Of a stretch of 47,258 nt of DNA, positions 12,557-43,962 are shown in pieces (positions within the stretch are counted from its first letter, which is position 1; each line of letters opens with the position of its first letter). The notes under the pieces are model-generated. The model saw only the letters and a program-made list of their open reading frames with translations. It did not search any database and was not told the DNA's origin. The stretch is from positions 1 through 47,258 of the forward strand of contig JAFGWA010000023.1 in NCBI GenBank assembly GCA_016937715.1. Reading direction: 5' to 3'. Source of the stretch: Candidatus Goldiibacteriota bacterium. Its GTDB lineage: Bacteria > Oederibacteriota > PGYV01. Made by a program: the position numbers and the translations under genes.

Positions 12557-12569
12557 TTAAATCACTTCC

Positions 12570-13697: not shown

Positions 13698-13752
13698 CCG
13701 TTTATCACCTCGTTATAATTACCCGCGCTTTAATACGGGTTGTAAATTCCGG

Positions 13753-14370: not shown

Positions 14371-14398
14371 GCCGTTTCTCCTTATGTAATTTTTCATT

Positions 14399-15349: not shown

Positions 15350-15367
15350 ATCAACAGCCCCGGCTTA

Positions 15368-16156
15368 TTACCTCTTAAGGTCATTTGCAAGTTTAAGCAT
15401 TTCATCCGAAGACGTTATTGCCTTGGCATTTATTTCATAAGCCCTCTGTGACGCAATAAGATTTATCATTTCTTCCACCACTTTTACATTGGAAGATTCA
15501 AGCATTCCCTGTCCTATTGTTCCGTAACCGTCAAAACCGGCTGTGCCTTCCACCGGTTCGCCTGTCGCTTCGGTTTCGCGGTAAAGGTTTTTACCTATGC
15601 TTTCAAGGCCGGCCGGATTGGCAAACCTTGTAAGCCTTAAAGTACCCACCATTTCAAGCTCGTTATTGCCGGAAACGCCCACCATTATTTCACCGTTTTC
15701 CCTGATTACAATCTGTGTGGCTTCCGAAGGAATAGTCACCTGCGGTTCAATGAAATAACCGTCAGAAGTTACAAGGTTTCCGGAACCGTCCATCTTTAAA
15801 GAACCGTCCCTGGTATATGCCATTTCACCGTTGGGAAGCTGTACCTGAAAAAATCCATCTCCCTGAATCACAACATCAAATGTATTATTGGTCTGAACAA
15901 TTTCACCCTGCGCAAAAGACTTGGTTGTTGCCGCAAGCCTTGTTCCGTGCCCTATTTCTATCGGGGTAGGATACTGTGCGCCCATATTATTAGTTACTCC
16001 GGCAGGCCTTATCGTCTGATATAAAAGGTCCTGAAATTCAGCCCTTGATTTCTTAAACGCCGTGGTATTGACGTTTGAAAGGTTGTTTGAAATTACATCT
16101 ATGTTTGTCTGCTGTGCAGCCATTCCTGTTGCCGCCGTCCAAAGTGATCTTAACAT
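15368..16156 (-). CDS. flgG: flagellar distal rod protein FlgG
   Basis: 262 residues. Forms the distal rod. Clear signatures: MLRSLWTAATGMAAQQTNID at the N-terminus, VISNNLSNVNTTAFKKSRAE (about 21-40), FQDLLYQTIRPAG, GDGFFQVQLPNG, YTRDGSLKMDGSG, GQGMLESSNVKVVEEMINLI, and the C-terminal QRAYEINAKAITSSDEMLK. Length is the family norm. Gaps of 39 bp to flgF and 18 bp to flgA support one operon. Confidence 0.96.
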   Translation of the reverse strand: MLRSLWTAATGMAAQQTNIDVISNNLSNVNTTAFKKSRAEFQDLLYQTIRPAGVTNNMGAQYPTPIEIGHGTRLAATTKSFAQGEIVQTNNTFDVVIQGDGFFQVQLPNGEMAYTRDGSLKMDGSGNLVTSDGYFIEPQVTIPSEATQIVIRENGEIMVGVSGNNELEMVGTLRLTRFANPAGLESIGKNLYRETEATGEPVEGTAGFDGYGTIGQGMLESSNVKVVEEMINLIASQRAYEINAKAITSSDEMLKLANDLKR

Positions 16157-16195
16157 ATTAAAACCTCCTGCAGTTTAGCCCTGTAGGGCTTTTAA

Positions 16196-16996
16196 TTAAA
16201 TTGATGTCCTTCCAACTTCATTTACCGCTTTATCCAGCGTCTGATCCTGCGCTGTTATTGCTTTCTGCGAAGCTTCGTAAGCCCTGAACGCTGTAATCAT
16301 TTCAACCATTTCGCGCACGGGATTCACGTTGCTTGATTCCACAAAACCCTGCAGCACTGTTGTTTCTTCCACATCAATATCTTCCGCAAGCAGCTGCCCG
16401 TCAAGGATATAAAAAAGATTATCGCCTTCTTTTCTAAGCGGAGTGGTATTATCAAAAAGCGCCACCCTGAAAGTATCCATTTCCGCGTTATCCACAAATA
16501 TCCTGCCGCCTTCATCCACGTGCACTTCAGATCCGTTTATTATAATCTCGCCTGACTGTCCAAGCACCGCATGCCCGTTCTTTGTGACAAGCCTGCCTTC
16601 TGAATCAAGAGAAAAACTTCCGTCCCTTGTGTACCTGATGCCGTTGGGGGTATTTACCACAAACATACCTTCACCCTTAATCGCAAAATCAAGTTTATTA
16701 TCCGTATTATTAAAAGATCCTTCTTCGGTTATGGACGGCTTAATTCCGTCCACGCGAAGCTGAACGCCTTTTCCTACCGTCCCTATGGGAACCATTAAAT
16801 CCCTTAAACCGGCACCCGGTATAACGGCTTTTTCATCCTGAACCCTGTGCAGAAAAACTTCAGGAAAAGTAATATAAAGCGCCCTGTCTTTTTTATATCC
16901 GTTAGTATTGACGTTTGCAAGATTGTTAGAGATTACATCCTGCTGTTCTGTCTGGGCAATAAGCCCCGATGCTGCCGTGTATAATCCGCTTATCAT
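16196..16996 (-). CDS. flgF: flagellar rod protein FlgF-like
   Basis: 266 residues. A paralogue of FlgG with the same axial signatures: MISGLYTAASGLIAQTEQQD, NNLANVNTNGYKKDRALY, IKGEGMFVVNTPNG, YTRDGSFSLDSEGRLVT, FVESSNVNPVREMVEMITAF and RAYEASQKAITAQDQTL. It is the first flagellar gene of the cluster, immediately before flgG, so FlgF (proximal rod) is the best label. It starts only 13 bp after the preceding PorV-like gene. The basal-body genes may therefore be transcribed from the outer-membrane protein operon. Confidence 0.85.
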   Translation of the reverse strand: MISGLYTAASGLIAQTEQQDVISNNLANVNTNGYKKDRALYITFPEVFLHRVQDEKAVIPGAGLRDLMVPIGTVGKGVQLRVDGIKPSITEEGSFNNTDNKLDFAIKGEGMFVVNTPNGIRYTRDGSFSLDSEGRLVTKNGHAVLGQSGEIIINGSEVHVDEGGRIFVDNAEMDTFRVALFDNTTPLRKEGDNLFYILDGQLLAEDIDVEETTVLQGFVESSNVNPVREMVEMITAFRAYEASQKAITAQDQTLDKAVNEVGRTSI

Positions 16997-18669: not shown

Positions 18670-20811
18670 TTAATAATTAGGATTTATTATTTCGCCGTTC
18701 AGCGTAATATTCGCGCCGCGAAGCATCTGTTCCGCGGAAATATATCCTCTTGAATAGTTCTGCGCCTGTGCAATAGGCACATTAACAGCCATTGTATTAT
18801 TGCCGCCATACAAGGCATTAATACCTATATTGCTGATGGACCCGCCCATGCTTTCAGCAATGCTTCTTGCCATCATCGCCACTTCTTTCATGACGTACTG
18901 CGGTATTGTGTTGGCTGTCGCGTATTCCATCATAAACTGTTTGTTGCCGTCAGCATCGGTTGCTATGTAAGCTGACCTGATTGCGGATGAATCCACATTC
19001 GGGAAACCCGCCACATTAACATTGCCTGCCGCCGCGCTTGGCGTTGCGCCCTGATAATTTTCAAAACCCGGGAACGCCGTTAAAGGCAACGGTTCCGGTA
19101 TTGTGCCCGCGGGAGGAGGAGGAACCGGTGTCGGTTTTCCTTTTATTGCCTTCCACTCTTCCACGCCCGCTTTCGCGTTTGCCATCTGCGCGTTGTCTTC
19201 AGCAAGGTCCCTGTCGCCTATCTGCTTTAACAGCGCTTTTAATTTATTAAGGGCTTCTTTATTTACAGCTTCAAGCACCGGAGTGAACAGTTTTACAGTC
19301 TGCACCGGAGTGGAAGCCGTGCTTCCAAGTTTGTCTGTAGCTTCAAATATAAAAGTGTATTCCCCGTCAGACAGGGGCTGATATTTGTTATCTGTTCCAT
19401 TCCATATAATCTGCGAAGGCGGAGCTCCTATATCAACATACGATTTAACAAGGTTATTGTTTTTATCAAGTATGTTAAGAGCCCATCTGTCTATTCCCGC
19501 TTTTGAATCTGCGTTAAGTTTAAATATTACCGTTTCGCCGTTTTTTGGCGCGAACGAAATAGGTTCTACCGCTGCAAAAACATCCGGCGTGGGAAGTTTT
19601 CTTACCACTTTACCCCATTCCCAATGCAGCGAAATCCAGTGCGAATCGCCTTCATTTTCAGCGTCCTGTCCAAGCGGTACGCCGAATACATAAGCATAAT
19701 CAATTCCAAAAATATACTTTGCCGACAAGCCCAGTGACGCCCTCCACGTTCCGGGATACATGACATCCACAAGCCCGCCCCTTACCGCAAAATGTCCGTC
19801 TATGAACCACTGCTCCGCGCCGAAATTAAACCTGTATCTTTCCTGCTCTAAAACACCCGGGTCATTAACCGAATTAAAATCAACGGAAAAACTTGTAACC
19901 TCTTTTTCTATAAGCTGCGTTGTGCGCATTGAAAGCCCGATGGTTGAAGTAAAAAACAGATTTTTTTCTATTCCGGTCTTGTATCTTTTCATCTGGCCCG
20001 AAACATCCCTTAACATTATTGAAATATTAAGGTCTTTTAAGAACTCAATAAGGCGCAGCTTATAAAGGAAACCGACATCCAGCCCCCATGCCCACGCGTC
20101 AAATTCATCCGTAAGAACTTTCTTGGCATCGGCATCAGTAAACATATATTTAACATTAACGCCAAAGTTAAAACTTTTATCAGAAGTTAAAGGCGTGGCA
20201 TAAGTTAAAAGCACGCTGTTTGTCTGAAAAGGAAGGTTAATGTACTGCCTGTATTTATCCCCTAAAAATTCCTGCCACGAAGGGTCCAAGCCGCCCATTC
20301 CCGCGCCGCCAAACCAGTTATAAATACCCGAAGGGATAATAAGATTTTCAGTAAAGAAAAGCGAAGCAGGAGGAGGAGCACCCGCATTACCTATAGGTTT
20401 TGGTATGCTTACCTTTTCGGGATACCTTCCGATTGGATGGTACAGTTTTTCATATGAAAGCCCGAAATACTGACCGCCAAGCGCCATTGTGAAAGACGCA
20501 AATCCTGTATAAGGAACGCCGCCGTAATAACTTCCGCCTGTCCAGAAAATTTCATTATGGTCCATCTGCGCAAGGCCTGCCGGATTGTAATAGATGGTGG
20601 ACGCGTCATCAGCAATTGCCGAAAAAGCTTCTCCCATACCTATTGCCCTTGCACCCGTACCAAATGGGTTATATTTATCAAAAAATGGTTCTTTAACTTT
20701 TTCCCATGTAATCTGCAGTGTGTCGGTAAAATCGTCCGCTGACACAAACGGAACCACCGCAAATAAAATAATAACCGCAAAAATGGACAGAATTACACTT
20801 TTTATGCGCAC
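18670..20811 (-). CDS. PorV-like outer-membrane protein with FlgD-like Ig domain
   Basis: 713 residues with a GTG start, supported by GGAGG about 7 bases upstream. A signal peptide (about 1-25) is followed by a PorV/UPF0164 barrel (about 45-400), recognisable by FGTGARAIGMGEAFSAIADD and STIYYNPAGLAQ. A FlgD/FlgE-type Ig domain follows at about 410-515 (ETVIFKLN, WALNILDKNNN, IIWNGTDNKYQPLSDGEYTF). Then come a helical stretch, a proline-rich linker (TPVPPPPAG, about 568) and an unrecognised C-terminal domain (about 605-713). It is the first gene of the operon that continues through a second PorV-like gene into the flagellar genes. A type IX-like or surface-anchoring role is inferred from the barrel family. 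Confidence 0.72.
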   Translation of the reverse strand: MRIKSVILSIFAVIILFAVVPFVSADDFTDTLQITWEKVKEPFFDKYNPFGTGARAIGMGEAFSAIADDASTIYYNPAGLAQMDHNEIFWTGGSYYGGVPYTGFASFTMALGGQYFGLSYEKLYHPIGRYPEKVSIPKPIGNAGAPPPASLFFTENLIIPSGIYNWFGGAGMGGLDPSWQEFLGDKYRQYINLPFQTNSVLLTYATPLTSDKSFNFGVNVKYMFTDADAKKVLTDEFDAWAWGLDVGFLYKLRLIEFLKDLNISIMLRDVSGQMKRYKTGIEKNLFFTSTIGLSMRTTQLIEKEVTSFSVDFNSVNDPGVLEQERYRFNFGAEQWFIDGHFAVRGGLVDVMYPGTWRASLGLSAKYIFGIDYAYVFGVPLGQDAENEGDSHWISLHWEWGKVVRKLPTPDVFAAVEPISFAPKNGETVIFKLNADSKAGIDRWALNILDKNNNLVKSYVDIGAPPSQIIWNGTDNKYQPLSDGEYTFIFEATDKLGSTASTPVQTVKLFTPVLEAVNKEALNKLKALLKQIGDRDLAEDNAQMANAKAGVEEWKAIKGKPTPVPPPPAGTIPEPLPLTAFPGFENYQGATPSAAAGNVNVAGFPNVDSSAIRSAYIATDADGNKQFMMEYATANTIPQYVMKEVAMMARSIAESMGGSISNIGINALYGGNNTMAVNVPIAQAQNYSRGYISAEQMLRGANITLNGEIINPNY

Positions 20812-25675: not shown

Positions 25676-28600
25676 TTACTTTACAACAGCCGCCTTTTCT
25701 ATAACCCTTACGCCTTCCATTTCAAGCACAATAAGATAAGCCCCTGATGATACTTTTTTCCCGGACTGATTTGTGCCGTCCCAGAAAATATCTCCGCTTT
25801 CAAAAGGCAGATTATTAGTTATGCCCTGCTCTGATTCGCTTTCAACAAGCGTGCGCACGTGCACCCCGCTTAATGTTGTGATATAAAATTTAAGTTTGCC
25901 GCTCTTTACAAGCAGGTATTTTAATCTTAGTTTTTCCCCTTTGCTTAAATCCACAAGGTTGGAAAAAACCCTTATTTTATTTTTCGGAAGCGGCAGTTCC
26001 ACTTTAACCGGTGTATAAGTGGCGTCTGTATTCCCGCCTGAATCCACCACGCGTATCATATACAGATAATTATTATCCCATTCGGTTGCCGCATCAGTAT
26101 ATTCCAAAACAGAAGCGGAAGTTACGCTTAAATGAACGTAAGTATAACCGTTGTCTTTACTTCTGAAAACACTGTATCCCGCAACCTGATAAGTGCCGTC
26201 AGACGCCGGATTCCACCATAAACTTACGTCTTTTTTATTTTCAATTTCAAATTTTACCGAAGCGTCCGCGGGAAGCCCTGCCGCAAGGTACGGCGTGACA
26301 TAAACCGGATTGGACTTTGGCCCTTCACCGGAATCATTTACCGCGGCCACAGCATAAATATAAGTGATATTATTCTCCACATTACTGTCCACATACTCTT
26401 TCACGTCAAAACCAAGGTTGTACGCAATAGGCGGCCCAAATTCCGCAGCTGTCACAGTTGTTTTTCTGTACACGCTGTAAGAATCCGGATTTACCGCTGA
26501 CCAGACAAGCCTTACCTGCCTGTTGGAAGCCACCCCTTTTAAAACCGCGGGCGGCGCCATGACTCCGTCTAACACTATCTGCACGCCGGTGGTGGATGTA
26601 TCTTCATTCCCCATGTCATCCGTAACCTTTATCTTATAGTAATAAGTTCCGGCGGTATTTATCTGCGCGTCAATGTAACTTGTCCCCGTATATTCCGACG
26701 CAAGAGCGTTAAACGCGCTTTGGCTGTAAGAAAGCGATGAAGTGCTTCTGTATATGTTGTATTTCACGGTTGTTTTATACGTGTAATCATTTACCGGCGG
26801 ATCCCATTTAAGGTATACCCTGTCATACAGGCTTGTAAGGGTAAGGTTTAAAGCCGGCCCCGGCCTGATAAACGGCGCGGCTGAAACTTCAGAGGATTTT
26901 GCCGTTTCAGAAACACCGTAACCGCTGACTTTATAATAGTAAACAGTAAGCGTGGCGGCGGCGCTGTCGGTATACGCGGTTATTGTGACAGATGACGCAT
27001 AAGGCGCGGTATCATAATATCCCTGCACAGTGCTTCTGTAAATTTTATACGCCGTTATTTCCTGTGACTGTACGGCTGACCATGAAAGAATTATTCTGCC
27101 GTCTCCCGCTTCTGCCGAAGCGGTAAGATTTTCAGGGGCGGTAAAATAACCCGGCTGCGGAGTAACGGTAACATGCGCGGAATAAGCGCTTTCCCCGTAT
27201 ATATTTTCTGATGAAACACGGTAATAATATGTACTGCCGTTTACAAGGCCTGCGTCATCAAACTGCGCGCCGGTAACGGAAGTCAGGTAATTAAAAACAG
27301 CGCTGTCAGTACTTTTATAAATCTTAAACGAAGTTATGCCGTATGAAGCGCCGGGGTCATCCCACGAAAGTTTTACAAAATTACTGTAAGCTGTTGCCGT
27401 AAGATTTTCCGGCTGCGGCGCGTAAGTCACCGCCATCGCCGAAACAATATCAGAGAATGATTCAAACGCGGTCTGTGTTAAAGCGGACACCCTGTAAAAA
27501 TAAGGCGTACCTGTCACTGCGGCCGCGTCTATAGCGCCGGCAGTCCCCGTGCTTATATATGGCGAAGTATAATTAAACGTATCCGCCGAAGTGGCCCTGT
27601 AAATATTATACGCCTGAATATTTTCTTCCGCGTTATTTTCGGTCCAATTCAAGAATACTTCTCCGGGCAACGAGCCTGCCATCGCGGTAACACCTGCCGG
27701 TGACGCGGGCATAACCGTCTGCGTCACCGCGGATGAGCCTTCCCCTGTACCAAAAGAATTTATTGCCTGAATATAATATGAATATGTATTTCCTAAAATC
27801 ACATCCGTATCTTCGTATGAAGCGGCTGTGGGTGTGGCTTTTACGGCAACAATTACTGAATTTCTTATTACCTGATATGCCGTTATATCTTCATCCGCCG
27901 GATTTGCCTGCCAGGAAATATTTATCCGCGCCGCATTTGCCGCCGTGACTGTAAGCCCGGCAGGCGCCGCCGGCACTCCCGGATTATAGGCGGAAAACCA
28001 GTATGCAGGAGAAGAATTTCCCTGCGTGTCAATGGTCCGTATTGCGTAATAATATAACTGCCCCGCAACAGGCAGTGTTTCGCTGTAAGAAGTGTACGTA
28101 ACAGACGCCGGAGAAAAGCTTTCATCCCCGTAAGAAGTTGACCTGAATATTTTATAACTGCCTGTTTCATACGTGCCCTGCAGCCCTGATGATGACCATT
28201 CAGCGTTAAGTTCCCCCGCCGACACCGAAACATCCGCGCCGCTTACAGGAAAAGGCGGAATAAAAGGTTTTGCAGAGACAGAACACGCGAAGGCGCCTTC
28301 CACGGAATTTTTTACGGATGCAGCCGTGTACCAGTAAAGGGCGCCGTTAGCAAGGTTTTCGTCGGTATATTGAGTTTCACCTGTGGTATTAATCAGCTTA
28401 AAACCGAATCCCGTGCTTCTGTAAATATTATATTCTTCAACGGCGCTGTCAGAAGACGGCTGCCATGAAATCATATTTTTAGAGTTATAAGGCACTGCCT
28501 GCAGGTTTTCAGGCGAAGCCGGCAATGTGCTTTTGGCCGCTGAAGCAGAGCCTGTCACGCCCGTAAAATCCACAGACTTAACAGTGTAATAATAAGCAAG

Positions 28601-28846
28601 GGTGGTATCAGCAGACGCGTCGTAATAATTATTGGCAGAAGCCGTTGCGGTAAGGTCATACGGTCCGGCACTGACAACAGACCTGTTAACCACGTACGAA
28701 ACCGCCGTTGACGTGTCAGACGGAGCGTCCCAGACAAGTTTTATGCCGCCGCAATTATACACTGACAGCCCGGTTACCGCGTAAGGCGCGGCCACGGCAT
28801 AAACGGCCGCAAAAACTAACAGCGCTGTTAATAATATTTTTCTCAT
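25676..28846 (-). CDS. secreted multi-FN3 protein with FlgD/T9SS-like C-terminal domain
   Basis: 1056 residues. A signal peptide (about 1-19) is followed by about ten fibronectin type III-like repeats covering roughly 20-965. Each has a start like PENLTATAYSNFVKLSWDDP and a later strand like YKIYRST or YNIYRAT. The last 85 residues form a different beta domain: RVFSN, KLRLKYLLVKSGKLKFYITT, GVHVRTLVE, GDIFWDGTNQSGKKVSSGAY and VIEKAAVVK. This is the pattern of FlgD-like Ig or type A T9SS sorting domains. It starts 31 bp after the SprA-like gene. Taken together it looks like a surface or secreted adhesin-type cargo of that pore. Cargo status is inference; an FN3-only surface protein exported otherwise is the alternative. 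Confidence 0.75.
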   Translation of the reverse strand: MRKILLTALLVFAAVYAVAAPYAVTGLSVYNCGGIKLVWDAPSDTSTAVSYVVNRSVVSAGPYDLTATASANNYYDASADTTLAYYYTVKSVDFTGVTGSASAAKSTLPASPENLQAVPYNSKNMISWQPSSDSAVEEYNIYRSTGFGFKLINTTGETQYTDENLANGALYWYTAASVKNSVEGAFACSVSAKPFIPPFPVSGADVSVSAGELNAEWSSSGLQGTYETGSYKIFRSTSYGDESFSPASVTYTSYSETLPVAGQLYYYAIRTIDTQGNSSPAYWFSAYNPGVPAAPAGLTVTAANAARINISWQANPADEDITAYQVIRNSVIVAVKATPTAASYEDTDVILGNTYSYYIQAINSFGTGEGSSAVTQTVMPASPAGVTAMAGSLPGEVFLNWTENNAEENIQAYNIYRATSADTFNYTSPYISTGTAGAIDAAAVTGTPYFYRVSALTQTAFESFSDIVSAMAVTYAPQPENLTATAYSNFVKLSWDDPGASYGITSFKIYKSTDSAVFNYLTSVTGAQFDDAGLVNGSTYYYRVSSENIYGESAYSAHVTVTPQPGYFTAPENLTASAEAGDGRIILSWSAVQSQEITAYKIYRSTVQGYYDTAPYASSVTITAYTDSAAATLTVYYYKVSGYGVSETAKSSEVSAAPFIRPGPALNLTLTSLYDRVYLKWDPPVNDYTYKTTVKYNIYRSTSSLSYSQSAFNALASEYTGTSYIDAQINTAGTYYYKIKVTDDMGNEDTSTTGVQIVLDGVMAPPAVLKGVASNRQVRLVWSAVNPDSYSVYRKTTVTAAEFGPPIAYNLGFDVKEYVDSNVENNITYIYAVAAVNDSGEGPKSNPVYVTPYLAAGLPADASVKFEIENKKDVSLWWNPASDGTYQVAGYSVFRSKDNGYTYVHLSVTSASVLEYTDAATEWDNNYLYMIRVVDSGGNTDATYTPVKVELPLPKNKIRVFSNLVDLSKGEKLRLKYLLVKSGKLKFYITTLSGVHVRTLVESESEQGITNNLPFESGDIFWDGTNQSGKKVSSGAYLIVLEMEGVRVIEKAAVVK

Positions 28847-28877: not shown

Positions 28878-31800
28878 CTAGAACTCCGCTATAAATTCAA
28901 GCGTGCCGCCGAAAGATTTAAAACTGTCCCTTGCCTGCCCCTGCGAATCATCTTTCTGCCTGTAGCGCAGGTTTACATTGGTGCGTATATTGCTGAAGAT
29001 GTTGTAAGAAAAACCCAGATCTGCCGTCAGTTCCTTTATGTCTTTCTTGCTTAAATTATTATCGCCCCTGCCGTCTCCCTGCATAACCGAATACGCCAGC
29101 ACGCTCCTTAAATTTATACTGTTATCAAGTTTTATTATTTTATTGCCCAGAAGAGGTATCCAGCCCGGTATTGTGAACGGCTGTGTTATATTAAGCGCGT
29201 AATTAAGGCTTAATTCCGGCCTGAGCGTCCACAGATAATTATCAATATACTTTTCCCTTGAATCAGACCTGCTGTAAGTCAGCCTTAAAGAACCATTTAT
29301 CGGGTTACTGCCTTCTGTTTTATACGGCAGGTTGAAACTGGCATCGTGGGCTATGGTGCCCCTTATAAGTTCTTTTCTGTCAAGCGGGTTATACGTATTT
29401 GTTACGGTGTAATTATAAGACCCGGATACAGTCTGGTCCTTTACTAAAAATTCCAGCCCCGGCAGCGTCACTTTGTCAAAGTAAATTTCACGCGCCGACA
29501 GCCTTAAAGAATCGTTTATCCCCGTTAAAGTCCTGGTCTGTGAATCGCGCCTTATGCTGTAATTTGCGCCTGCGGCTATCCTTAGCCTTTCAAAGAATTT
29601 TATTTCCGCCAGGTCAAGGGTGTAATCCCGCGACATGGCGCCGCCATAAGACAGCGCTTCAAGCCTTTCCACGGATTTTTCATCATAAAAATATTCCCAT
29701 ATAAAAACGTACCATTTCTTCTCAAACGGAAGCTCGTCAAACGCCTTAAATGAACCGGGGTAATAATTATTGTCATACCGCCTGTTAGTATCAGATACTG
29801 ACGCGGAAATGTTTGTGATATCCGGAAGCACCGGTATTATTCTGCTTAAAGCCACGCGCGCGCGCGCCGCAAGCGAAGCGTTTGTATAAAGCAGGTTAGA
29901 CGTGTATTCATACCGGTATCCGGAAGAATAATCAACCGACGGGGACACTATCCCTATTTCCTGCGCGCTTATATTTATCTTCGGCGTTATTTCCCGCTTT
30001 GTAACAAGGTATTTATCGGTATAATTCTTATCGCCTATTGAATCATAGTAATAATTGAACCGGCTTAACAGGTTTCCTTTTTCTTCGCTGAGTTTATAAT
30101 TATATGACGGGTTAATGGAAATTTTATCCGCCGTAAAACTGCCTTTGTAGTCATGGTCCTGTTCCCTTTTTAAATTCCACTGGTCATAATAAGTGGCCTG
30201 GGTGTTAAGCGTCACGCCAAAATAATCCGCGTAGTCGGTCTTTGTGTTTGTAACAAGCATGCTGCTTTCCAGAGTATTAGTGCCAAGCGGTATGGTAAAC
30301 AGGTCTCCCACTTTAATCTCTGTGGGAATCATATAGCGCGCGTAAGGCCTTACCGTGAACACTTCACTTAAATTATTCTGGTATTCATACAGCTGGAAAT
30401 AATTAAACTTCATATTCCTTAAAGTAACAGCGCTTGAAAGCGTAAGTCCGGGCACCGACATCAGCGATATATCATTCCTGAAACTGTCCACCACGGTGTC
30501 AGGCGTTGAAAAACTGTTGGTGTACGTGGGGTCATTCCTGTACCGGTCTTCGGTGTATCTTTCAGTCTTCGCGATTTCCGCCGATACCGGCACCTCTTTT
30601 ATCTGTGTGTAGTCAAACCTTACCCTGTTGTCCCTTGAATGCTGAAGATATTTTGCCCTGTCCATATCAAGGATTGTGTTGAATCCGGAATCAAGTTCCT
30701 CGTATGTGTGCGTCAGGTTTCCAAAACCCGCCATATTAAGCGCTGAATTGGTATACCTTGCCATACCCACTTTTGATATCGGGTCTATAAGCCTTATATT
30801 ATTAACGTATATGACATCATCCGTTACGGTGTTATTCGGATTTATGAAACCCAAAGTAATGTACTGCACTTTTCTTAAATTCGGAGAACCCACGGCGCCG
30901 CTGCGTTTTTTGTCGGAACCGTCCAGTTCAATTTCCGCGGTATGCCAGCCCCCGTCAGCCGGCACAGAATCCAGCTGAAGGTTGTACTGGTAATAATTTG
31001 TTTCATCCACGCCCGGCGGCGGCGCAGCGGTACCAAGGCGCACAAACATAACCCTTCCCGCGCCCGCATCCCCGCTTTTTCTGGAAAATAAAAGGTCCAT
31101 CTTAATTTTTTTATACTGCTGGTAATCATACCCCGTGGACTCGCTTAAAAATTTTGTGGTGTAATAAATCGGCTGCCCGTCGGAAGGCCTCTGGTCATAA
31201 GCGGAAAGTTTGTAGGAAATTTTCAGCGCCTCTTCCGATTTTTTATCTTCATCCTTCTGGTATTCAAAATAATCCACGTTAGGCGTATATGATTCATCCG
31301 TATTCTGATTTACCGTTTCCACGTTCATCTTTGAAGTGTTCGGGGAATTTATAATATTCCCCACCATGTCTGTAGCGCCGGTTAAGGTCTTTAACCTCCA
31401 TGAATTTCCCAGAAAGTTAATTGATTCAATTTTTATATGCCCCGCGCTTGGCGACGCCCCCGCGCCTTTTATGCTTACCCTTACGTGTTTGATAATGGAG
31501 AAAAACGCGGTACTGCTTGGATTGCGCTGGTCAGAATTAAGGCCGAACGACTGCGAAAACTGGGAAAGGGGTATCTTTACCAGATGCCAGCCCTTCTGAG
31601 ACAGGGTAAGCTGCGGATGGTAATAATTGGGCCCGTCCGAACTGAATTCATAATACGACTCTGAAGTATCCATCTGCCCGTCATTGTCCATATCTTCAGT
31701 GTCAAGGACGTCATTGCCCGCGCCCCAATAGTCCGTATTTTCCGGATAAATACCCCTGCCTATTCCTATATCATAAACGGCTTTTAATTTGCCGTTATTT

Positions 31801-34800
31801 TCCGCGTCTTCGCTGTCACGCCTTATCCCGGACGTGGAATTCAGCTCAAATGTATTATTGCCGTTGCTGTCTTCGCTTATTATACCCACGTCCACTTTAA
31901 GTTTTACCGGATTGTCAGTATCCACATAAACCCACATTTCCATGTAATTTAAGTTATTAAGGTTTTCACCGAACGCTGATACCACATACCTGTACGCGTC
32001 CCATTTATCCTGCGTAAGCCCGCTGTAATTTAAACGCAGCATTACCTGTGCCGAAGAACCCAGCGTGCCTTCGGTTACTATCTGATGCCCGTTTTCAGTG
32101 ACATTTTCCTTTCCTGTAAGCACCCTGTTTTCAGGAACCACTCCCGCCGGTATGCTTGCCGGAAACCATGAATACCTGTTAGTGGAAAGCGATAACACAT
32201 TATCCGCGCCTTCCATATTATCAATCATGGCGGCGCCTTTTTCCTTTGTCCTGGCGTTTTCAAAAAGGTTCGGGTTAAAATCGCTGTACGCCACTTCACC
32301 CTGAAAGCTGAAATCAACCGGTAAATCCGCGCCGTCCACAAAAGGCACGCCGTTTATCACTTCGTTAATCTGTTTCTTATCAAGCGTAAGTTTTATGTCG
32401 CCGTCAAGCATGTACATACTTGCAGGCGTTGAAAGCCTTGTGTCCGTTGAACGCGCGTCAGGGACTGTTGTCCCCGCGCTGGAAAATTTCCACAGCCACG
32501 TACTGCCCAGATTTAAATTATCAAAAAGCTTGTAATCTATCCTCGCGCCCACAACCGTGCTCTGAAAACTCTGAAAAAATGGAAAATATTCATACGCGAT
32601 TTTTATCCTGGAACTTGGCTGGACAAGATTTTTATCTATAAAAATTATTTCACCGGTTTCATAAAAAATATTATAATCTTTATCCTTTAACAGGTCGCGC
32701 CCGTCAATCTGAACCCTTTCACTTCCGTACACCACGGGTGAATTATCAAGCCTGTAAGACGATACCCTGTAATTATATTTAAGGTAAATTTCATAAAGGG
32801 ATTTATTCGCGGTTATACTGTAGGCGTCTTCCGTTAAATTGGATGGCCTTATATTATTGCCCGGGTCTGCCGGCGTTGAATAGTTGGAAGCAAACGGGAA
32901 AAACGCCTTGAATTTTAAAAGCCCCATATCCGTGTCAATTTCATAATACCTTGAAGAGTCATTGTTGTTGGGCTGCGGAATACTGATACTTTCCTGCGAC
33001 TTATTTCTTATCTCTATATAAAAGTAACCGTCATTGGCGGGGTTTTCTATCTGCGTCTCGCCAAGGTAATAATAGTTAAGCACTTTATGCGATAAATCGC
33101 CCGTTGTGTTCTGCCGCCCGTCCTGTATAAGGTGGGCGCTGTCGGACGTATAACCCGTGCTTGCGGATGTAAGCCCGGTTTCATTAAAATTAAAACTGCC
33201 GTCCGAAGAATACCCGACCTTTTGCCCGTCGCTTGTTTCAAAAGCCACGGCAATGGTGCTTGTATCCGGTATGCCGATATTAAATTTAACAACGCCGTTC
33301 TTGTAGTCTATAACATAATCAGAGCCTATCTGAAGGGGCCTGAAATGAAAAGTCCTGTTGGGAATGGAATAAATAACTTCGGCGGGAATGTCATTGCTGG
33401 CTATCCCGTCGTCATAATAGATTAAAACAGAACCCGGCTTTATGGAAACCGGCGCGGCAGGCACCGGCAGCCCGGCGTTGGGTGCAAGCGCGCTTACGTG
33501 CAGGGGGTCTTTTGACAGGTAATAATAGATATTTTTCTGATACTGGTTGTCAAGTATCGTGTAACCTTCTTTTCCGTTTACTTCTTTCTGCCTTAAATTT
33601 CCGGTAAATTCCTGCACGGCAGAAATGCCTTTTGCCTGCGCGCCAAAAGCGGTTACAGAAAACTTATCACCAAGCATAGCCCTTCCTTTTATTCCAAAAA
33701 GCGTCTGCGAATAACTTGCGTAACGCGTGGGCGGCAATGATAATGTTATATCTCCGAAAGACGCTTCCTGAATCGTCTCTTCTTTTTCGCCCTGATATTG
33801 AATTGAAATTTTTGTGTATTCGCTTGTGGGGTTCTGGTCGTCATAATCCACGTCCACAATAATCTTTTTGCCTATGTTGCCGTTTAACCTTACCCTGAAT
33901 GCCTGGGTAAAATCAAAACCTTTCTTATCCCCCGTAACAATGGCATCATCCGGCGTCACGCCTGTAAAACCCACCTTGACTGACTTCATACCGCGGATTT
34001 CAAGTTTGGATTCCGGCGGCAGCCCGTACTGGGAAATATCAGCGGAAAGAATTCCTGTCTGCGGCACGCTTACCCATTCTATTTTTGCCGATACGGGCAC
34101 GCTTGCAGCCCCGGTATTTCCGTACGCGTCAACAGGCACTATCTTGTAAAAATATTCCACGCCCGGCACGGGCGGGTCGCGGCTTAAAATCATATTATCA
34201 TAATAAAAAGACCTGCCCATGTCATCTTTATACGGTTTTACCATGCCCAGGTTAATCGGCTGTTCCGGAAAAGCGGAAGCGTTATTACTTCTGAAAATAT
34301 TATACCCCTGTATCCCGGCAGCACCTGTTGCCAATGGTTCAAGCCAGGACAGCCTTATGCTTTCCTGCGAAACTGCTTTTACCGTAACATCTGCGGGCCC
34401 GCCCAAACGTGAATATGGTATCGCGGAAACAGGAAGAGACATGGCCATATCGCCCTTTAAATCAACCGTCTGCACCCTGTAAAAATATTCTGTCCCTTCG
34501 GACAATCCCGTATCTTCATATACAGTTTCTTTAAGTATTTCAGGGTTAATCCGCGCGCCCTGTTCTTCCCTGTTAAAAGAACGGAAAATATTGTAACCCG
34601 AAAGGCCAAAAGGGCCGGTGGAATCCGGTTCCACCCATTTTAAAGTAACGGAAGAAAAACCGGCCAAAGCTTCAATTTCACGGGGCGCTTCAAGTACGCC
34701 TATCGGCTTTGCGGTTGCCACGTTTGAATCGCCGATATTGGACCCGTTGTATACCGCGCCGACTTTATAGTAATATGTGACATTACTTTGCGGCGGAATT

Positions 34801-35117
34801 ACGCTTGAATCAGCCGAGTCAATGTAAATAAGCTCTCTTACAGGTTCTTTTGTGATTGTGATATAGTCTTCATCCGGCCCTGACGCGCGGTAAACTTCAT
34901 ACGCCACGCCTTCCGCCGTATCCGCGTCCCATGACAGCATGACCCTTAACCCGTCAGTCTTTGCCCTTAAATTAAAAGGTGAACGGTTAACGGCCGTAAC
35001 GCCGGTTAGGTTTTTTTCTTCGGCAATAGAAGGTTCCGGCGCGGAAAATAAAACGCCGCTTAATGCCGCAAAAAAAAGCATCACGGTTAATGAAATATTA
35101 ATCGCGCGCTTAACCAC
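28878..35117 (-). CDS. SprA-like giant outer-membrane protein with N-terminal FN3 domains
   Basis: 2079 residues. A signal peptide (about 1-26) and three FN3 domains (about 45-138, 143-236, 240-345) precede a very long beta-rich region. Motifs resembling SprA/Sov, the 36-strand pore of type IX secretion, are FGDITLSLPPTRYASYSQTL (454-473) and LFGIKGRAMLGDKFSVTAFG (473-492). Further ones are YVIDYKNGVVKFN (601-613), GSERVQIDGRD (798-808), DYNIFYETGEIIFIDKNLV (814-832) and AMIDNMEGADN (963-973). The chain ends with an aromatic residue (EFIAEF), usual for barrels. The N-terminal FN3 triplet is not typical of SprA. It lies upstream of a likely cargo gene. SprA homology is judged by eye, without a profile search. 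Confidence 0.68.
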   Translation of the reverse strand: MVKRAINISLTVMLFFAALSGVLFSAPEPSIAEEKNLTGVTAVNRSPFNLRAKTDGLRVMLSWDADTAEGVAYEVYRASGPDEDYITITKEPVRELIYIDSADSSVIPPQSNVTYYYKVGAVYNGSNIGDSNVATAKPIGVLEAPREIEALAGFSSVTLKWVEPDSTGPFGLSGYNIFRSFNREEQGARINPEILKETVYEDTGLSEGTEYFYRVQTVDLKGDMAMSLPVSAIPYSRLGGPADVTVKAVSQESIRLSWLEPLATGAAGIQGYNIFRSNNASAFPEQPINLGMVKPYKDDMGRSFYYDNMILSRDPPVPGVEYFYKIVPVDAYGNTGAASVPVSAKIEWVSVPQTGILSADISQYGLPPESKLEIRGMKSVKVGFTGVTPDDAIVTGDKKGFDFTQAFRVRLNGNIGKKIIVDVDYDDQNPTSEYTKISIQYQGEKEETIQEASFGDITLSLPPTRYASYSQTLFGIKGRAMLGDKFSVTAFGAQAKGISAVQEFTGNLRQKEVNGKEGYTILDNQYQKNIYYYLSKDPLHVSALAPNAGLPVPAAPVSIKPGSVLIYYDDGIASNDIPAEVIYSIPNRTFHFRPLQIGSDYVIDYKNGVVKFNIGIPDTSTIAVAFETSDGQKVGYSSDGSFNFNETGLTSASTGYTSDSAHLIQDGRQNTTGDLSHKVLNYYYLGETQIENPANDGYFYIEIRNKSQESISIPQPNNNDSSRYYEIDTDMGLLKFKAFFPFASNYSTPADPGNNIRPSNLTEDAYSITANKSLYEIYLKYNYRVSSYRLDNSPVVYGSERVQIDGRDLLKDKDYNIFYETGEIIFIDKNLVQPSSRIKIAYEYFPFFQSFQSTVVGARIDYKLFDNLNLGSTWLWKFSSAGTTVPDARSTDTRLSTPASMYMLDGDIKLTLDKKQINEVINGVPFVDGADLPVDFSFQGEVAYSDFNPNLFENARTKEKGAAMIDNMEGADNVLSLSTNRYSWFPASIPAGVVPENRVLTGKENVTENGHQIVTEGTLGSSAQVMLRLNYSGLTQDKWDAYRYVVSAFGENLNNLNYMEMWVYVDTDNPVKLKVDVGIISEDSNGNNTFELNSTSGIRRDSEDAENNGKLKAVYDIGIGRGIYPENTDYWGAGNDVLDTEDMDNDGQMDTSESYYEFSSDGPNYYHPQLTLSQKGWHLVKIPLSQFSQSFGLNSDQRNPSSTAFFSIIKHVRVSIKGAGASPSAGHIKIESINFLGNSWRLKTLTGATDMVGNIINSPNTSKMNVETVNQNTDESYTPNVDYFEYQKDEDKKSEEALKISYKLSAYDQRPSDGQPIYYTTKFLSESTGYDYQQYKKIKMDLLFSRKSGDAGAGRVMFVRLGTAAPPPGVDETNYYQYNLQLDSVPADGGWHTAEIELDGSDKKRSGAVGSPNLRKVQYITLGFINPNNTVTDDVIYVNNIRLIDPISKVGMARYTNSALNMAGFGNLTHTYEELDSGFNTILDMDRAKYLQHSRDNRVRFDYTQIKEVPVSAEIAKTERYTEDRYRNDPTYTNSFSTPDTVVDSFRNDISLMSVPGLTLSSAVTLRNMKFNYFQLYEYQNNLSEVFTVRPYARYMIPTEIKVGDLFTIPLGTNTLESSMLVTNTKTDYADYFGVTLNTQATYYDQWNLKREQDHDYKGSFTADKISINPSYNYKLSEEKGNLLSRFNYYYDSIGDKNYTDKYLVTKREITPKINISAQEIGIVSPSVDYSSGYRYEYTSNLLYTNASLAARARVALSRIIPVLPDITNISASVSDTNRRYDNNYYPGSFKAFDELPFEKKWYVFIWEYFYDEKSVERLEALSYGGAMSRDYTLDLAEIKFFERLRIAAGANYSIRRDSQTRTLTGINDSLRLSAREIYFDKVTLPGLEFLVKDQTVSGSYNYTVTNTYNPLDRKELIRGTIAHDASFNLPYKTEGSNPINGSLRLTYSRSDSREKYIDNYLWTLRPELSLNYALNITQPFTIPGWIPLLGNKIIKLDNSINLRSVLAYSVMQGDGRGDNNLSKKDIKELTADLGFSYNIFSNIRTNVNLRYRQKDDSQGQARDSFKSFGGTLEFIAEF

Positions 35118-35174: not shown

Positions 35175-35834
35175 CTATTTTGTTATGCTTATAATATCCA
35201 TCGTTTCATTTTTATACCTGTCAGCCGTCTTTATCACACCCTGCCCTTCGGCGTACCACACGCTTTTATCAGTCGCCCTGCCGCCTTTATAATCCACCCT
35301 TACCGCTTCCATCTCCCCGGCTGTTGTTAAAATTGTCTCCGGTTCGTTTACCGTCCCCATAATCGGGCCTGCCGCGGTATCAGCCGCTTTAAACTTTACG
35401 CCTTTTTTTACCTTTGGCGGAAGCATTATCATGCCGTAAGGTTTTTTATCTCCAAAGTTTTCAGAAGTGTAAGCCTTAACAACTCCGGTTTTGCCGTATG
35501 AATAGTATTCCTGCACGGTATAATTATTTCCCGTGTCTGTCCTGTTTAATATCGCCAGAGTCTCGCCGTTTATGACTTCTTTTTTGTCAAGAAACTCCCA
35601 GCGCTCCGGGCTTTTGCCGGAAATATTAAAAAGCGACAAGCCTGTATTTTCCACAGGAAAATACAGCTGCGCGTTTGGTTTCATCATTGTGACAACAATA
35701 AAAGCAATTACACCAAGCACAACCGCTGCTGCCGCGGCGTATACAACATTCATATTAACGCCGCTTTTTTTCTTTCCGGTTTTTCCCGCCTGTTCCCTTT
35801 GTTCCAGCATCTTGTCTATATCAATTTCAGCCAT
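35175..35834 (-). CDS. hypothetical single-pass membrane protein
   Basis: 219 residues. A short, charged, lysine-rich N-terminal cytoplasmic segment (about 1-28) contains IDKMLEQREQAGKTGKKKSG. One transmembrane helix follows (about 31-50) and then an extracytoplasmic beta-rich domain (about 55-219) with phrases such as YTVQEYYSYGKTGVVKAYTS and VWYAEGQGVIKTADRYKNET. The last resembles the repeating strands of DUF3108 or TapB-type beta proteins, but I cannot assign a family. It is 14 bp after the glycosyltransferase gene and 57 bp before the SprA-like gene, so it may be an accessory to envelope or surface assembly. Confidence 0.65.
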   Translation of the reverse strand: MAEIDIDKMLEQREQAGKTGKKKSGVNMNVVYAAAAAVVLGVIAFIVVTMMKPNAQLYFPVENTGLSLFNISGKSPERWEFLDKKEVINGETLAILNRTDTGNNYTVQEYYSYGKTGVVKAYTSENFGDKKPYGMIMLPPKVKKGVKFKAADTAAGPIMGTVNEPETILTTAGEMEAVRVDYKGGRATDKSVWYAEGQGVIKTADRYKNETMDIISITK

Positions 35835-38904: not shown

Positions 38905-39288
38905 TTATCTTCTATACCCCATGTTTTTTCTTATTATTTTTCTGCAAATCCCCGATATTTCCAGAGCCTGTTCCGCATCTTTCTTTTCGGCGTCTTCAAA
39001 AGGATACCTTGCAGCCACTGCATAAGCGGTAAGAGAAACAAACCGATTTTTATAAACTAAAATGTCAGGAACAAATTCCGCTACCGATTCAACAAGCATT
39101 CTTATATCATGAGTTTTGGGTATGTCCCTTCCCTTTTCCTGCAACACGCCTTTAAGATATTTTTCGCATGATTGCTGCGCGTGGAAACACACCGAATTGT
39201 AAAAATGCTCGCGTGATTTAAAAGCATATAGAGCAAGATTAAGGTCTTCTTCCGCTTTCTTTACCCATGCTTTTGTCTCCGGTTTCAA
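38905..39288 (-). CDS. HEPN-domain protein of a HEPN/MNT pair
   Basis: 127 residues, all-helical HEPN fold of the PF05168-like type: WVKKAEEDLNLALYAF (8-23), FHAQQSCEKYLKGVL (35-49), THDIRMLV (59-66) and ARYPFEDAEKKDAEQAL (93-109). In HEPN/MNT pairs the HEPN protein is often an RNase toxin silenced by the nucleotidyltransferase partner. The canonical C-terminal RX4-6H RNase motif is not obvious: the conserved R94-Y-P is not followed by a histidine. An R54-x5-H60 exists but sits in the loop between helices. It overlaps the MNT gene by 4 bp, the standard arrangement. Nuclease toxicity is therefore uncertain. Confidence 0.85.
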   Translation of the reverse strand: MKPETKAWVKKAEEDLNLALYAFKSREHFYNSVCFHAQQSCEKYLKGVLQEKGRDIPKTHDIRMLVESVAEFVPDILVYKNRFVSLTAYAVAARYPFEDAEKKDAEQALEISGICRKIIRKNMGYRR

Positions 39289-39605
39289 AGCTTAATACCC
39301 TGTGACATGGCTTTTTTTGTCAGCATATCTTCAGGATATTTTTTCAGATATTTTTTGTTTCTTACAACAATATCAACCGGGAATTCCGCCGGAAAAGACC
39401 CGCTTAACGAAGTATAAATATCAGCGGCCTGTTTTATGGTCCTTTCTTCCGATTCCGAAACTACCATAAGGTCTATATCGCTGTCAGGGCCGGGATTTCC
39501 ATAAGCATATGACCCAAAAAGAATAACATCTTTAGCGCCGTGTTCTTTTTTTATAAATTCAGCCATCTTTTTAACTGTTTTCATGATATTTTTTTTACCG
39601 GACAT
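39285..39605 (-). CDS. MNT-type nucleotidyltransferase (probable antitoxin)
   Basis: 106 residues, minimal pol-beta-superfamily nucleotidyltransferase. The signature FGSYAYGNPGPDSDIDLMVV (30-49) supplies the GS motif and the metal-binding Asp pair D43 and D45; a third acidic residue is D78 in FPVDIVV. In characterised HEPN/MNT modules the MNT protein transfers AMP to a tyrosine of the HEPN toxin. It is the upstream gene and overlaps HEPN by 4 bp. The active site is intact, so enzymatic activity is plausible. The substrate is inferred from the family. Confidence 0.88.
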   Translation of the reverse strand: MSGKKNIMKTVKKMAEFIKKEHGAKDVILFGSYAYGNPGPDSDIDLMVVSESEERTIKQAADIYTSLSGSFPAEFPVDIVVRNKKYLKKYPEDMLTKKAMSQGIKL

Positions 39606-41016: not shown

Positions 41017-42891
41017 TTATCTGCTTAACTTTTTTATGGCAGCAAGTTTCTCTCTGGCCCTTGCGATATTTTTCTTTGCTTCAGCGTGACCCGGGTCCAT
41101 TGCAATGACTTTGCCCCATACCGCTATTGCCGCTTCAATCTCGCCGTTTACGTATTTATCAACGCCTTCGTAATAAAGCGATTTTAAAGCTTTGGCGTCC
41201 ACAGACGCTTTACTTTGAGTTCCTGTAAGTTTTTCTATCCCGCTGTTTGCCTCTTCGTTATTGGGATCTATCGCAAGCACTTTCTGGTAATACGACTTGG
41301 CTTTTTCCGGCGAGGATTTATTCTGCCTGGCAAGGCTTAGATATTTATCCTTATCCGCTTCTATTTTCTGATTTACCTTTGTTATTCCGTCACGGGCCGA
41401 TGAATTTCCGGAATCATATTTAAGCACATCATTAAACTTCTGCAGTGCTTTTCTGTAGTCTTGTTTTACTTTTTTATCGCTGCCGCTGAAAAACTTTTCC
41501 GCCTGTATCAAAAGCGCCTTTATCTTTGCGTCGCGGGAAGCCCTTGCGGCGCGTATTTTTTCATCCACCGCCTTCGCCTTTGCGCCGGTAAGCAGTTTCT
41601 TTAACTCGTAATATTCATCCACCGCTTCCGTGTATTTTTCCTGGTTAAGATAAAGCTTTGCCTGCTTTTCCTTTGCGGAAATAAGCTCGCTTATATTTTT
41701 TTCAACTTTTGCCATTCCGTCTTTCGCTTCCCCGTTATCCGGATTTACCTGAAGTACATAATACCAGGCGTTATATGCCCCTCCCACATCGCCCGCTTCA
41801 AAAGCTTTTTTGCCTTTTTCAAGGTAATCGGGAACCTGCTTTGAAATACTTTCGTTTACAGAAGACAGGTATTTCTGTGCTTCGCTGTCGCCCGGTTTTA
41901 CCTTAAGCGCAAGGGTAAACTGCTCTTTTGCCTTTAAGAATTCTTCTTCCGTCAGGTATGTGGTGCCGCTGCTAAGGTAATAGTCATATCCGGTGGTCTT
42001 TACCTGCGCTAAAAGAGAGAAGGTGGAAGAGTCTCCCGGATTAAGTTTCTTGGCGGTTTCCAGCTCTTCAATGGCTTCTTTATACATATTCCTGTAATAG
42101 TATGCCATCCCCAGGTTGTAATGCGCGTCGGAAAAGTTCGGGTTAATATTAATTGCCTTTTTATACGCGGTTATCATCTTATCGTACTCTTTTTTCTTAA
42201 AGTAATTAAGGCCAAGTAGATACTGAGCGTTAAAGTTTTCCGGATTTGCCTTTACAACCTCTTTAAGATTTTCTATAGCCTTGTCCGCGTTTTCCCTTTT
42301 ATGATATATAAGCCCCAGAAGCTCCCTGCATTCCAGATGCTTGGGTTTTATATCAATACACTTTTCAAAGTTGATAAGAGCGTCTCCAAAGATATTCTTT
42401 TTATAATACGACTGCCCAAGCCTGAAATACGCCTCTGACATTTCATCGTATTTTTTTTCTATGCTTTTGGTAAAAGCTTCTATTGCTTTGTCCAGATTTT
42501 CCTTGCGCAGATAAGCAAGCCCCGCATAAAAATAGTTTGCCCCGTCCGCGGGATTTAACTGCGATGCCTTGTCAAAGTATTTTATGGCTTCATCATCGTT
42601 ATTCTTAAAATTATAATAAATTATCCCCGCGATCTGCGCCGCGGAAAAATCCACCTTTTCATGCGAAGCTTTGTCGTCTTTATTTATTTCCAGCACCTTT
42701 TTCATCGTATCAAGCGCTTCGTCGTGCCTGTTTTCATTGTAATAAGCCAGCCCAAGGTTAAAGCGTTTTACAACATTATTGCCGTCAAGCTCCACGGCTT
42801 TTTTGTATTCTTCCACGGACGCAAATACCGCGGATGAAAGAAAAACCGCCAATACCGCGGTTAGCAGCCGTTTAATAAAAGTTTTTTTCAT
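41017..42891 (-). CDS. secreted TPR-repeat protein
   Basis: 624 residues. A signal peptide (about 1-24, ending SSAVFA) precedes at least ten TPR-like helix pairs through most of the chain. Examples are VVKRFNLGLAYYNENRHDEA, ADGANYFYAGLAYLRKENLD, AYFRLGQSYYKKNIFGDALI, NAQYLLGLNYFKKKEYDKMI and FSDAHYNLGMAYYYRNMYKE. The second half (about 340-620) has looser TPR units with long charged helices. It is 12 bp after the TPR/propeller gene and shares an operon with the PorV-OmpA fusion, so a periplasmic scaffold for that envelope complex is a reasonable guess. No catalytic motif is present. Confidence 0.78.
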   Translation of the reverse strand: MKKTFIKRLLTAVLAVFLSSAVFASVEEYKKAVELDGNNVVKRFNLGLAYYNENRHDEALDTMKKVLEINKDDKASHEKVDFSAAQIAGIIYYNFKNNDDEAIKYFDKASQLNPADGANYFYAGLAYLRKENLDKAIEAFTKSIEKKYDEMSEAYFRLGQSYYKKNIFGDALINFEKCIDIKPKHLECRELLGLIYHKRENADKAIENLKEVVKANPENFNAQYLLGLNYFKKKEYDKMITAYKKAININPNFSDAHYNLGMAYYYRNMYKEAIEELETAKKLNPGDSSTFSLLAQVKTTGYDYYLSSGTTYLTEEEFLKAKEQFTLALKVKPGDSEAQKYLSSVNESISKQVPDYLEKGKKAFEAGDVGGAYNAWYYVLQVNPDNGEAKDGMAKVEKNISELISAKEKQAKLYLNQEKYTEAVDEYYELKKLLTGAKAKAVDEKIRAARASRDAKIKALLIQAEKFFSGSDKKVKQDYRKALQKFNDVLKYDSGNSSARDGITKVNQKIEADKDKYLSLARQNKSSPEKAKSYYQKVLAIDPNNEEANSGIEKLTGTQSKASVDAKALKSLYYEGVDKYVNGEIEAAIAVWGKVIAMDPGHAEAKKNIARAREKLAAIKKLSR

Positions 42892-42903: not shown

Positions 42904-43962
42904 CTATTTAGCACCTATTAAAAGGCGCTTTCTTTCAAGTTCTATTAAATTAAAATCACGTTGTCCGTCCTGCAGAAAAATTAGCTTTTCGCCGTACTGG
43001 CTCCATGCCGCCATTAAGACCTTTTTTAACTTAATCTTTCCCAGAAACGAAATATTATTTCCCGTGTTTTCCATAATCCACGGGTTGCCGTTATATATAA
43101 AAACTATCTTTCCGCCTTTCGGAGAAAACAAAAGCATGGGTTCCACGTTTTTCCCGGAAAAGAGCTTTTTAACCTTATTCTTTTTGACGTCATAAACCAT
43201 AATTTTTCTTACCTTTTTTGTAAGAATTGTGTAGCCGATATACCTGCCGTCCCACGACCACTGCGGCGCCTGCCCGCCGGCGGATTGCTTTATTGCCTTT
43301 ATTTTTCTTCCCGCGGCATCATAAATAACAAGATTTTTTTGCTTTTTTCCGCCGTCTTTTTTTACCATAAATTTTCTGTCCGCCGAATACACCCCGTCAA
43401 GTATGTAGTTTCTTACGGGAAAGACTTCTTTTTCAAGACGCGGTACAATCGAAGCCCTGCCGGCGGTTATCTGGTGCGCGTCAAGAGCAAGAATTTTTGC
43501 ACCCTGCTGTTCATCGCTTTTTAAAATTGTAAGGGTCTTGTCAATGGCGGTAAGCACAGGCGTTATTCCAAAACGTTTTTTATATTTGTCCCTTATCGCG
43601 TCCGCTTTGGCATTATCGGGGTAGACTTCCACATAAATATGTATAAGTTTTTCATATGCCTTATCCAGGTGTTTATAATTTTTAAACTTACCCGCCAGGG
43701 CATTAAATACCCTTTCCGATTCTTCATATCTTTCGGTGCGGTACAGCAGGTTTCCAAGGCGGTACATAGCGTCTGCCGCGTAAGTGAATTTGGGATAATC
43801 TTCAATGACCCTGTAAAACAGGTCAATAGCCGCGGCAGAATCGCCAATAGCCGCCTGTGCGTTTGCCCTGTTGTATAAAGCTTCCGGGCTTTCAGCGGAG
43901 TAAATAACAGATGCAAATAAAAGCCCAATTACCGCGGCGGCAAAAAACTTTCTTAATTTCAT
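42904..43962 (-). CDS. TPR plus PD40/TolB-like beta-propeller protein
   Basis: 352 residues. A signal peptide (about 1-22) is followed by TPR units (about 25-135): ALYNRANAQAAIGDSAAAID, FTYAADAMYRLGNLLYRTER and YKHLDKAYEKLIHIY. A TolB/PD40-type propeller segment follows at about 160-345: GRASIVPRLE, WSWDGRYIGYTILTKKVRKI, MLLFSPKGGKIVFIYNGNPW and AAWSQYGEKLIFLQDGQRDF. TPR plus PD40 is the front half of PorE, the peptidoglycan-anchoring T9SS protein. The OmpA half is supplied by the preceding gene, with which it shares one base in a TAATG overlap. The PorE link is inference from domain order and coupling. Confidence 0.72.
   Translation of the reverse strand: MKLRKFFAAAVIGLLFASVIYSAESPEALYNRANAQAAIGDSAAAIDLFYRVIEDYPKFTYAADAMYRLGNLLYRTERYEESERVFNALAGKFKNYKHLDKAYEKLIHIYVEVYPDNAKADAIRDKYKKRFGITPVLTAIDKTLTILKSDEQQGAKILALDAHQITAGRASIVPRLEKEVFPVRNYILDGVYSADRKFMVKKDGGKKQKNLVIYDAAGRKIKAIKQSAGGQAPQWSWDGRYIGYTILTKKVRKIMVYDVKKNKVKKLFSGKNVEPMLLFSPKGGKIVFIYNGNPWIMENTGNNISFLGKIKLKKVLMAAWSQYGEKLIFLQDGQRDFNLIELERKRLLIGAK

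Follow-up and report, generated by a model that had tools for sequence, protein, structure and literature searches.

The sprA-family gene at positions 28878-35117 of the window (the whole 47,258-nucleotide stretch analysed here, which is contig 23 of the 2.59-Mb genome of a Candidatus Goldiibacteriota bacterium) encodes, with an estimated probability of roughly 0.82, a divergent SprA that acts as the outer-membrane translocon of a type IX-like secretion system with cargo proteins carrying type IX C-terminal domains (CTDs) and with carriers of the PorV family. The system is called type IX-like rather than canonical because its motor and its sortase were looked for and not found. The open reading frame is intact and runs without interruption from a GTG start on the minus strand through 2079 codons for amino acids (aa). 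A preliminary description of this DNA had proposed a SprA-type translocon, and this identity is upheld by a match above cut-off to the SprA equivalog model, by a profile search against the PDB and by the predicted fold of two overlapping halves of the chain.

TIGR04189, the NCBIfam equivalog model of SprA, matches the sprA product with 202.7 bits (E 6.6e-60) and thus narrowly passes its curated cut-off of 200 bits. It is made up of four segments in co-linear order (profile positions 96-259, 521-790, 1080-1331 and 1386-1472), and coverage ends at position 1472 of 2319. The last third of the protein has diverged beyond this sequence model, and the SprA call for the C-terminal third is therefore based on the predicted fold. 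An alignment profile of 33 homologues retrieves SprA of Flavobacterium johnsoniae (6h3i/6h3j) from the PDB at E 3e-54 in three ordered co-linear stretches, while the remaining listed matches are confined to the FN3 region. The alignment profile is required for this relationship to emerge, as a single-sequence phmmer search of the PDB returns FN3 proteins only, for example titin; a tblastn search of phages with the sprA product gives matches within the FN3 region only, to tail proteins. The motifs that had been quoted as reminiscent of SprA (GSERVQIDGRD, DYNIFYETGEIIF and AMIDNMEGADN) are all found in the protein, whose motifs align with F. johnsoniae SprA at GSVVVTAAGRVLVEGIDYSVDYQLGRVQIL and D-x-F/M-EG.

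The 2079-residue chain was modelled with AlphaFold2 as two overlapping 1200-residue halves, residues 350-1549 with a mean pLDDT (predicted local distance difference test) of 75 and residues 880-2079 with a mean of 80.7. For both halves the four best Foldseek matches in the PDB are the four F. johnsoniae SprA/Sov structures used for comparison (6h3i, 6h3j, 8gl6 and 8gl8; T9SS Extended Translocon, PMC10994853), with E-values of 3.5e-52 to 1.3e-38 for the first half and 2.2e-39 to 2.5e-32 for the second, each at a probability of 1.00. The first matches other than SprA follow at 5e-6 and 1e-6, respectively. The half-chain TM-scores against SprA (TMq) are 0.46 and 0.49 with a large root-mean-square deviation, and values of about 0.5 or less are expected because the half-chains were folded without their partners. 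In the second model, 26 strands of at least 10 residues are predicted within the last ~650 residues. That the gene might encode a giant outer-membrane barrel unrelated to SprA, such as LptD, SusC or a TonB-dependent receptor, is effectively refuted; barrels of this kind do appear low in the fold-search list, but for each half the SprA structures score better by some 30 orders of magnitude or more, and the sequence relationship points the same way.

The protein begins with a clear signal sequence that is followed by three FN3 domains, about 1700 residues of beta-rich sequence and a terminal phenylalanine (F2079) that is invariant across 33/33 homologues; the signal peptide, the FN3 triplet and the aromatic C-terminus that had been read from the DNA are all present. 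The FN3 domains are the only named domains that Pfam recognises (fn3, 4.4e-11), and all three are resolved with an iterated FN3 profile. The protein is co-linear with F. johnsoniae SprA over about SprA residues 143-1578, adopts the same fold in Foldseek and shares the D-x-[MF]-EG motif. It differs in size, with a core of about 1700 residues and a total of 2079 aa compared with 2403 aa, in the lack of a PF14349 match, in a C-terminal third that lies beyond sequence detection, and in a system in which GldL/M/N and PorU are not detected. It also carries the FN3 triplet where F. johnsoniae SprA has an N-terminal extension. Three FN3 domains are found in 15 of the 33 SprA proteins (the Goldbacteria order and several FCPU426 families) and a single one in nine, while the nine shorter proteins of the Firestonebacteria families have none and their N-terminal stretch is unrelated. 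The triplet is hence a lineage-specific feature that varies between three, one and zero copies and is not universally needed by this pore. The N-terminal extension of F. johnsoniae SprA connects the core with the periplasmic dish of SkpA/SprE (PMC10994853). Since the FN3 domains occupy the place of this dish-organising N-terminus, it is plausible that they act as a periplasmic extension with a docking role, and by this analogy the triplet is probably a vestibule or docking arm in the periplasm that is particular to this lineage.

SprA is near-universal in the phylum. Matches to TIGR04189 occur in 40 of the 45 genomes and fragments in three more, which places SprA or part of it in 43/45. The apparent absence in G040, G018 and G021 and the short versions in G017 and G033 reflect fragments and are consistent with assembly breaks, and the SprA core is unmatched in G012 and G026 (84% and 65% complete). 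In the alignment of 33 homologues, identity to the SprA of the window drops from 95% within the genus to 41-45% within the order and 25-31% beyond it, as expected under vertical descent of sprA. The contig scan for sprA relatives used one phylum-specific pattern; it found this phylum alone and is uninformative on the wider distribution. Two of the records, L066 (JAJFUW010000171.1) and L083 (JAHFSL010000133.1), are titled Spirochaetia and Coatesbacteria and are probably mislabelled metagenome-assembled genomes. The host had been described as flagellated and apparently outside the Bacteroidota. Its phylum-mates are Goldiibacteriota, FCPU426 and Firestonebacteria records, and the window itself encodes FlgK, FlgN, FlgI, FlgH, FlgA and two FlgF/G-type rod proteins at 9158-16996. 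The flagellar genes are in agreement with the published Goldbacteria genomes, whose nearest neighbours, Firestonebacteria and Elusimicrobia, are sibling clades without flagellar genes (PMC7031533).

The second body of evidence comes from the cargo tails and carriers of the same genome. Type IX CTDs are represented by at least 21 TIGR04183 matches over cut-off, FlgD_ig domains by 36 stretches, and PF18962/CHU_C is matched on example CTD proteins. The PorV family accounts for 27 stretches in about 24 genes, 14 of them above the NF033709 cut-off of 90 bits, while the cut-off of the PorV equivalog NF033710 is reached by none of the proteins scanned. The binding of PorV that had been mentioned for SprA is matched by PorV-family partners in the window, which holds three such genes, and in the genome at large. 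CTD and PorV genes are often paired: for ten PorV-family genes the immediate neighbour on the same strand encodes a CTD or FlgD_ig protein, compared with about 0.68 expected by chance under a rough random-placement model that assumes 2400 genes, 24 PorV genes and 45 CTD/FlgD_ig genes. The usual order is CTD gene followed by PorV gene with gaps of often 10-30 bases. A subtilase and an FG-GAP protein with Por_Secre_tail are among the cargo proteins encoded beside carriers. The gene that immediately follows sprA on its downstream side (25676-28846) likely encodes a type IX cargo as well. A homologue adjoins sprA in 17 of 35 loci, and the CTD is kept in 15/15 complete copies.

Like the F. johnsoniae system, this genome combines SprA with PorV-family partners and CTD cargo, and the three components may cooperate as they do there. 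By analogy, exported CTD proteins would enter the SprA barrel from the periplasm, be bound inside it by a carrier of the PorV family that sits at the lateral opening, and then leave the barrel sideways together with the carrier to reach the cell surface. The succession of a cargo gene and its own carrier-barrel gene is reminiscent of the type B CTD and its PorP/SprF shuttle, as in sprB-sprF of F. johnsoniae (PMC12618676), although the carriers here are PorV/PorQ-family proteins and the tails fit the type A-like TIGR04183 and FlgD_ig models. F. johnsoniae uses a single shared PorV for type A-like tails, whereas many carriers are present here, and the gene neighbourhoods suggest that each carrier serves its neighbouring cargo in the manner of the SprB/SprF pairs. 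It is improbable that a barrel of SprA fold was recruited for another task, such as assembling a polymer or FN3-rich proteins at the cell surface, in place of CTD-dependent secretion. Such a role would fit the lipopolysaccharide (LPS) genes found beside sprA and the failure to detect a canonical motor, but CTD cargo and PorV-family carriers are abundant in the genome and paired with one another, and a CTD protein gene adjoins sprA itself.

Several observations weigh against a SprA translocon of a type IX-like system. The cut-off of TIGR04189 is cleared by 2.7 bits only and was passed in just 3 of the 45 phylum genomes in the genome scan. Of the SprA profiles suggested as a check in the preliminary description, only the full-length equivalog is matched; the N-terminal model SprA_N (PF14349) finds no match in the protein or the genome, a result of limited weight as the genome search had no matching positive control. 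The single closed barrel of about 36 strands with a lateral opening and an extracellular cap is putative here, as the chain was modelled in two halves rather than in one piece. Among the motor and ring components, GldL is weakly matched in two of the 45 genomes and has no match in the host's own, and the first domain of GldM (GldM_1st) is matched in none, high-quality genomes included, in profile searches that had no Bacteroidota positive control; GldN is found in 0/45 in a search in which no positive control was matched. Peptidase C25, the catalytic domain of the sortase PorU, is present in four of the 45 genomes and has no match in the host. The abundant matches to NF033707 ('PorU') do not fill this gap, for nearly all of them span the CTD of PorU only and count cargo rather than sortases.

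These absences can be read in two ways, both compatible with the SprA identity. The first is a conventional and complete type IX system whose GldK/L/M/N and PorU are too divergent for the hidden Markov models, which is possible but falls short of an even chance. The motor and sortase models are built mainly on Bacteroidota and were used without a usable positive control, so that divergence could hide members; SprA itself barely passes its model, and the faint GldL matches, the few C25 peptidases and the uncontrolled GldN search all leave room for undetected parts. The complete lack of GldM_1st and GldN matches even in high-quality genomes, and of a gldK-L-M-N-like operon beside sprA in any of 34 neighbourhoods, speaks against this reading. 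The second reading is that a proton motor of the TolQR/ExbBD-TonB type drives the FN3-armed SprA and is encoded in a cluster together with cargo, carrier and a SprE-like TPR protein, with one dedicated PorV-family carrier per cargo and without GldLM, the GldN ring or PorU; taken as a whole this is rather unlikely.

A candidate motor cluster is encoded elsewhere in the genome and comprises a PorV-FlgD_ig protein, a 1025-aa TPR protein, ExbB/TolQ, ExbD/TolR, a TonB-domain protein and a FlgD_ig protein. In G039, a near relative, the cluster shares its contig and strand with sprA at a distance of about 25 kb, and a CTD gene precedes it. The order PorV-TPR-ExbB is retained throughout the Goldbacteria order, in families f10 and f11 and in part of f9, with a CTD gene upstream in all ten genomes whose contig extends that far, and some clusters contain two ExbD genes. 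The 1025-aa TPR protein scores 124.6 bits with the SprE/PorW model NF052312 (cut-off 250), and generic YbgF-type TPR models score higher. The cluster resembles the AglRQS-Glt core of Myxococcus and Fibrobacter (PMC3169522) in its large TPR protein, one TolQ/ExbB-like and one or two TolR/ExbD-like proteins and a TonB-domain protein; it differs in the additional PorV-family barrel and CTD protein, and a GltE/GltC analogue or FHA domain was not seen. The CTD-PorV-TPR-ExbB-ExbD-TonB cluster may either energise the SprA system or form a Glt-like complex, and the ExbB-ExbD-TonB module with its CTD, PorV and large TPR neighbours may tentatively be regarded as the best motor candidate in this lineage. 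The notion of a replacement motor is weakened by families f16, f8 and f7, most members of which have SprA, as the best ExbB matches sampled there lie outside a CTD-PorV-TPR cluster and in f16 adjoin a TonB-dependent receptor.

Table 1. Features of the sprA-family gene, its surroundings in the window and the candidate motor cluster.
Feature	Position	Strand	Basis or remark
sprA-family gene, 2079 aa, GTG start	28878..35117	minus	ORF (open reading frame) reading, TIGR04189, PDB profile search, predicted fold
Signal peptide, about residues 1-26	35040..35117	minus	MVKRAINISLTVMLFFAALSGVLFSA, judged by eye
FN3 domain 1, residues 46-140	34698..34982	minus	Pfam and iterated FN3 profile
FN3 domain 2, residues 144-236	34410..34688	minus	Pfam and iterated FN3 profile
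FN3 domain 3, residues 240-345	34083..34400	minus	Iterated FN3 profile
SprA core, residues 366-2079	28881..34022	minus	Co-linear with SprA of F. johnsoniae, starting at about residue 143 of the latter
C-terminal barrel region, residues 1434-2079	28881..30818	minus	AlphaFold2 strands, invariant terminal Phe
Candidate cargo immediately downstream of sprA, with signal peptide, about 10 FN3 domains and a type IX-like CTD ending KAAVVK	25676..28846	minus	Pfam, locus comparison
PorV/PorQ-family barrel with FlgD_ig, 713 aa, candidate carrier/surface protein	18670..20811	minus	NF033709 73.5 bits, below cut-off of 90
PorV-family barrel with C-terminal FN3, 548 aa	17010..18656	minus	NF033709 92.8 bits; fn3
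PorV-family barrel with FlgD_ig and OmpA peptidoglycan-binding domain, 680 aa	43962..46004	minus	NF033709 101.9 bits; OmpA 3.1e-20
219-aa protein with one apparent transmembrane segment, upstream of sprA	35175..35834	minus	Family F5, 9 loci
Candidate motor cluster	L171:941-8771 (G000 contig 33)		Counterparts in relatives L181, L182, L184-L194

In the Goldbacteria order the gene of the 219-aa protein is conserved on the upstream side of sprA; its product has no significant match in Pfam or NCBIfam. The LPS genes near sprA in the window encode a heptosyltransferase and an O-antigen ligase. In FCPU426 and Firestonebacteria relatives (L032-L038, L042, L045, L046, L051, L052 and others) sprA adjoins a divergent pair of lptF/lptG-like permease genes, and in FCPU426 family f16 it also lies near lpxC-fabZ, lpxA and lpxI. 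On the sprA strand, the PorV-family gene with FlgD_ig and OmpA domains (43962-46004) forms a run with genes for a TPR/TolB-like beta-propeller protein (42904-43962) and a large TPR protein (41017-42891), which looks like a peptidoglycan-anchored envelope complex. At two further loci of the genome, L161:7895-9401 and L176:2054-3774 (G000 contigs 5 and 46), an extracytoplasmic function (ECF) sigma factor is encoded beside an anti-sigma-like protein with a PorV-family gene close by. The anti-sigma-like proteins have a C-terminal FlgD_ig/CTD-like domain, which follows a hydrophobic segment and, in the one from L161, a zf-HC2 domain, and these loci could possibly serve as a sensor of the secretion state. 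The window also contains, at 38905-39605, a gene pair for a HEPN domain protein and an MNT-type nucleotidyltransferase, as is typical of HEPN/MNT toxin-antitoxin modules.

Type IX secretion is usually called specific to the Bacteroidota (PMC7463736, PMC4793230) or otherwise assigned to the Fibrobacteres-Chlorobi-Bacteroidetes (FCB) superphylum (PMC11205867; sorting domain PMC4737851). Type IX CTDs outside the Bacteroidota are also known from the TIGR04183 cargo of Poribacteria (PMC3909097) and the type IX secretion system (T9SS) signals of Fibrobacter (PMC6851124). The authors of the Poribacteria study found no structural genes (PMC3909097), whereas the pore is identified here. A near-universal SprA in the phylum of Goldbacteria, Firestonebacteria and FCPU426, together with cargo and carriers and with no detectable GldLM motor or sortase, widens the range of the system. 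The more interesting result lies outside 28878-35117, in the pairs of carriers and cargo and in the possible use of a different motor. The questions of what constitutes a minimal type IX machine, and of whether other proton motors can drive SprA, thereby become testable, and the findings suggest where the missing pore may be sought in lineages such as the Poribacteria, for which CTD cargo without secretion genes was reported (PMC3909097).

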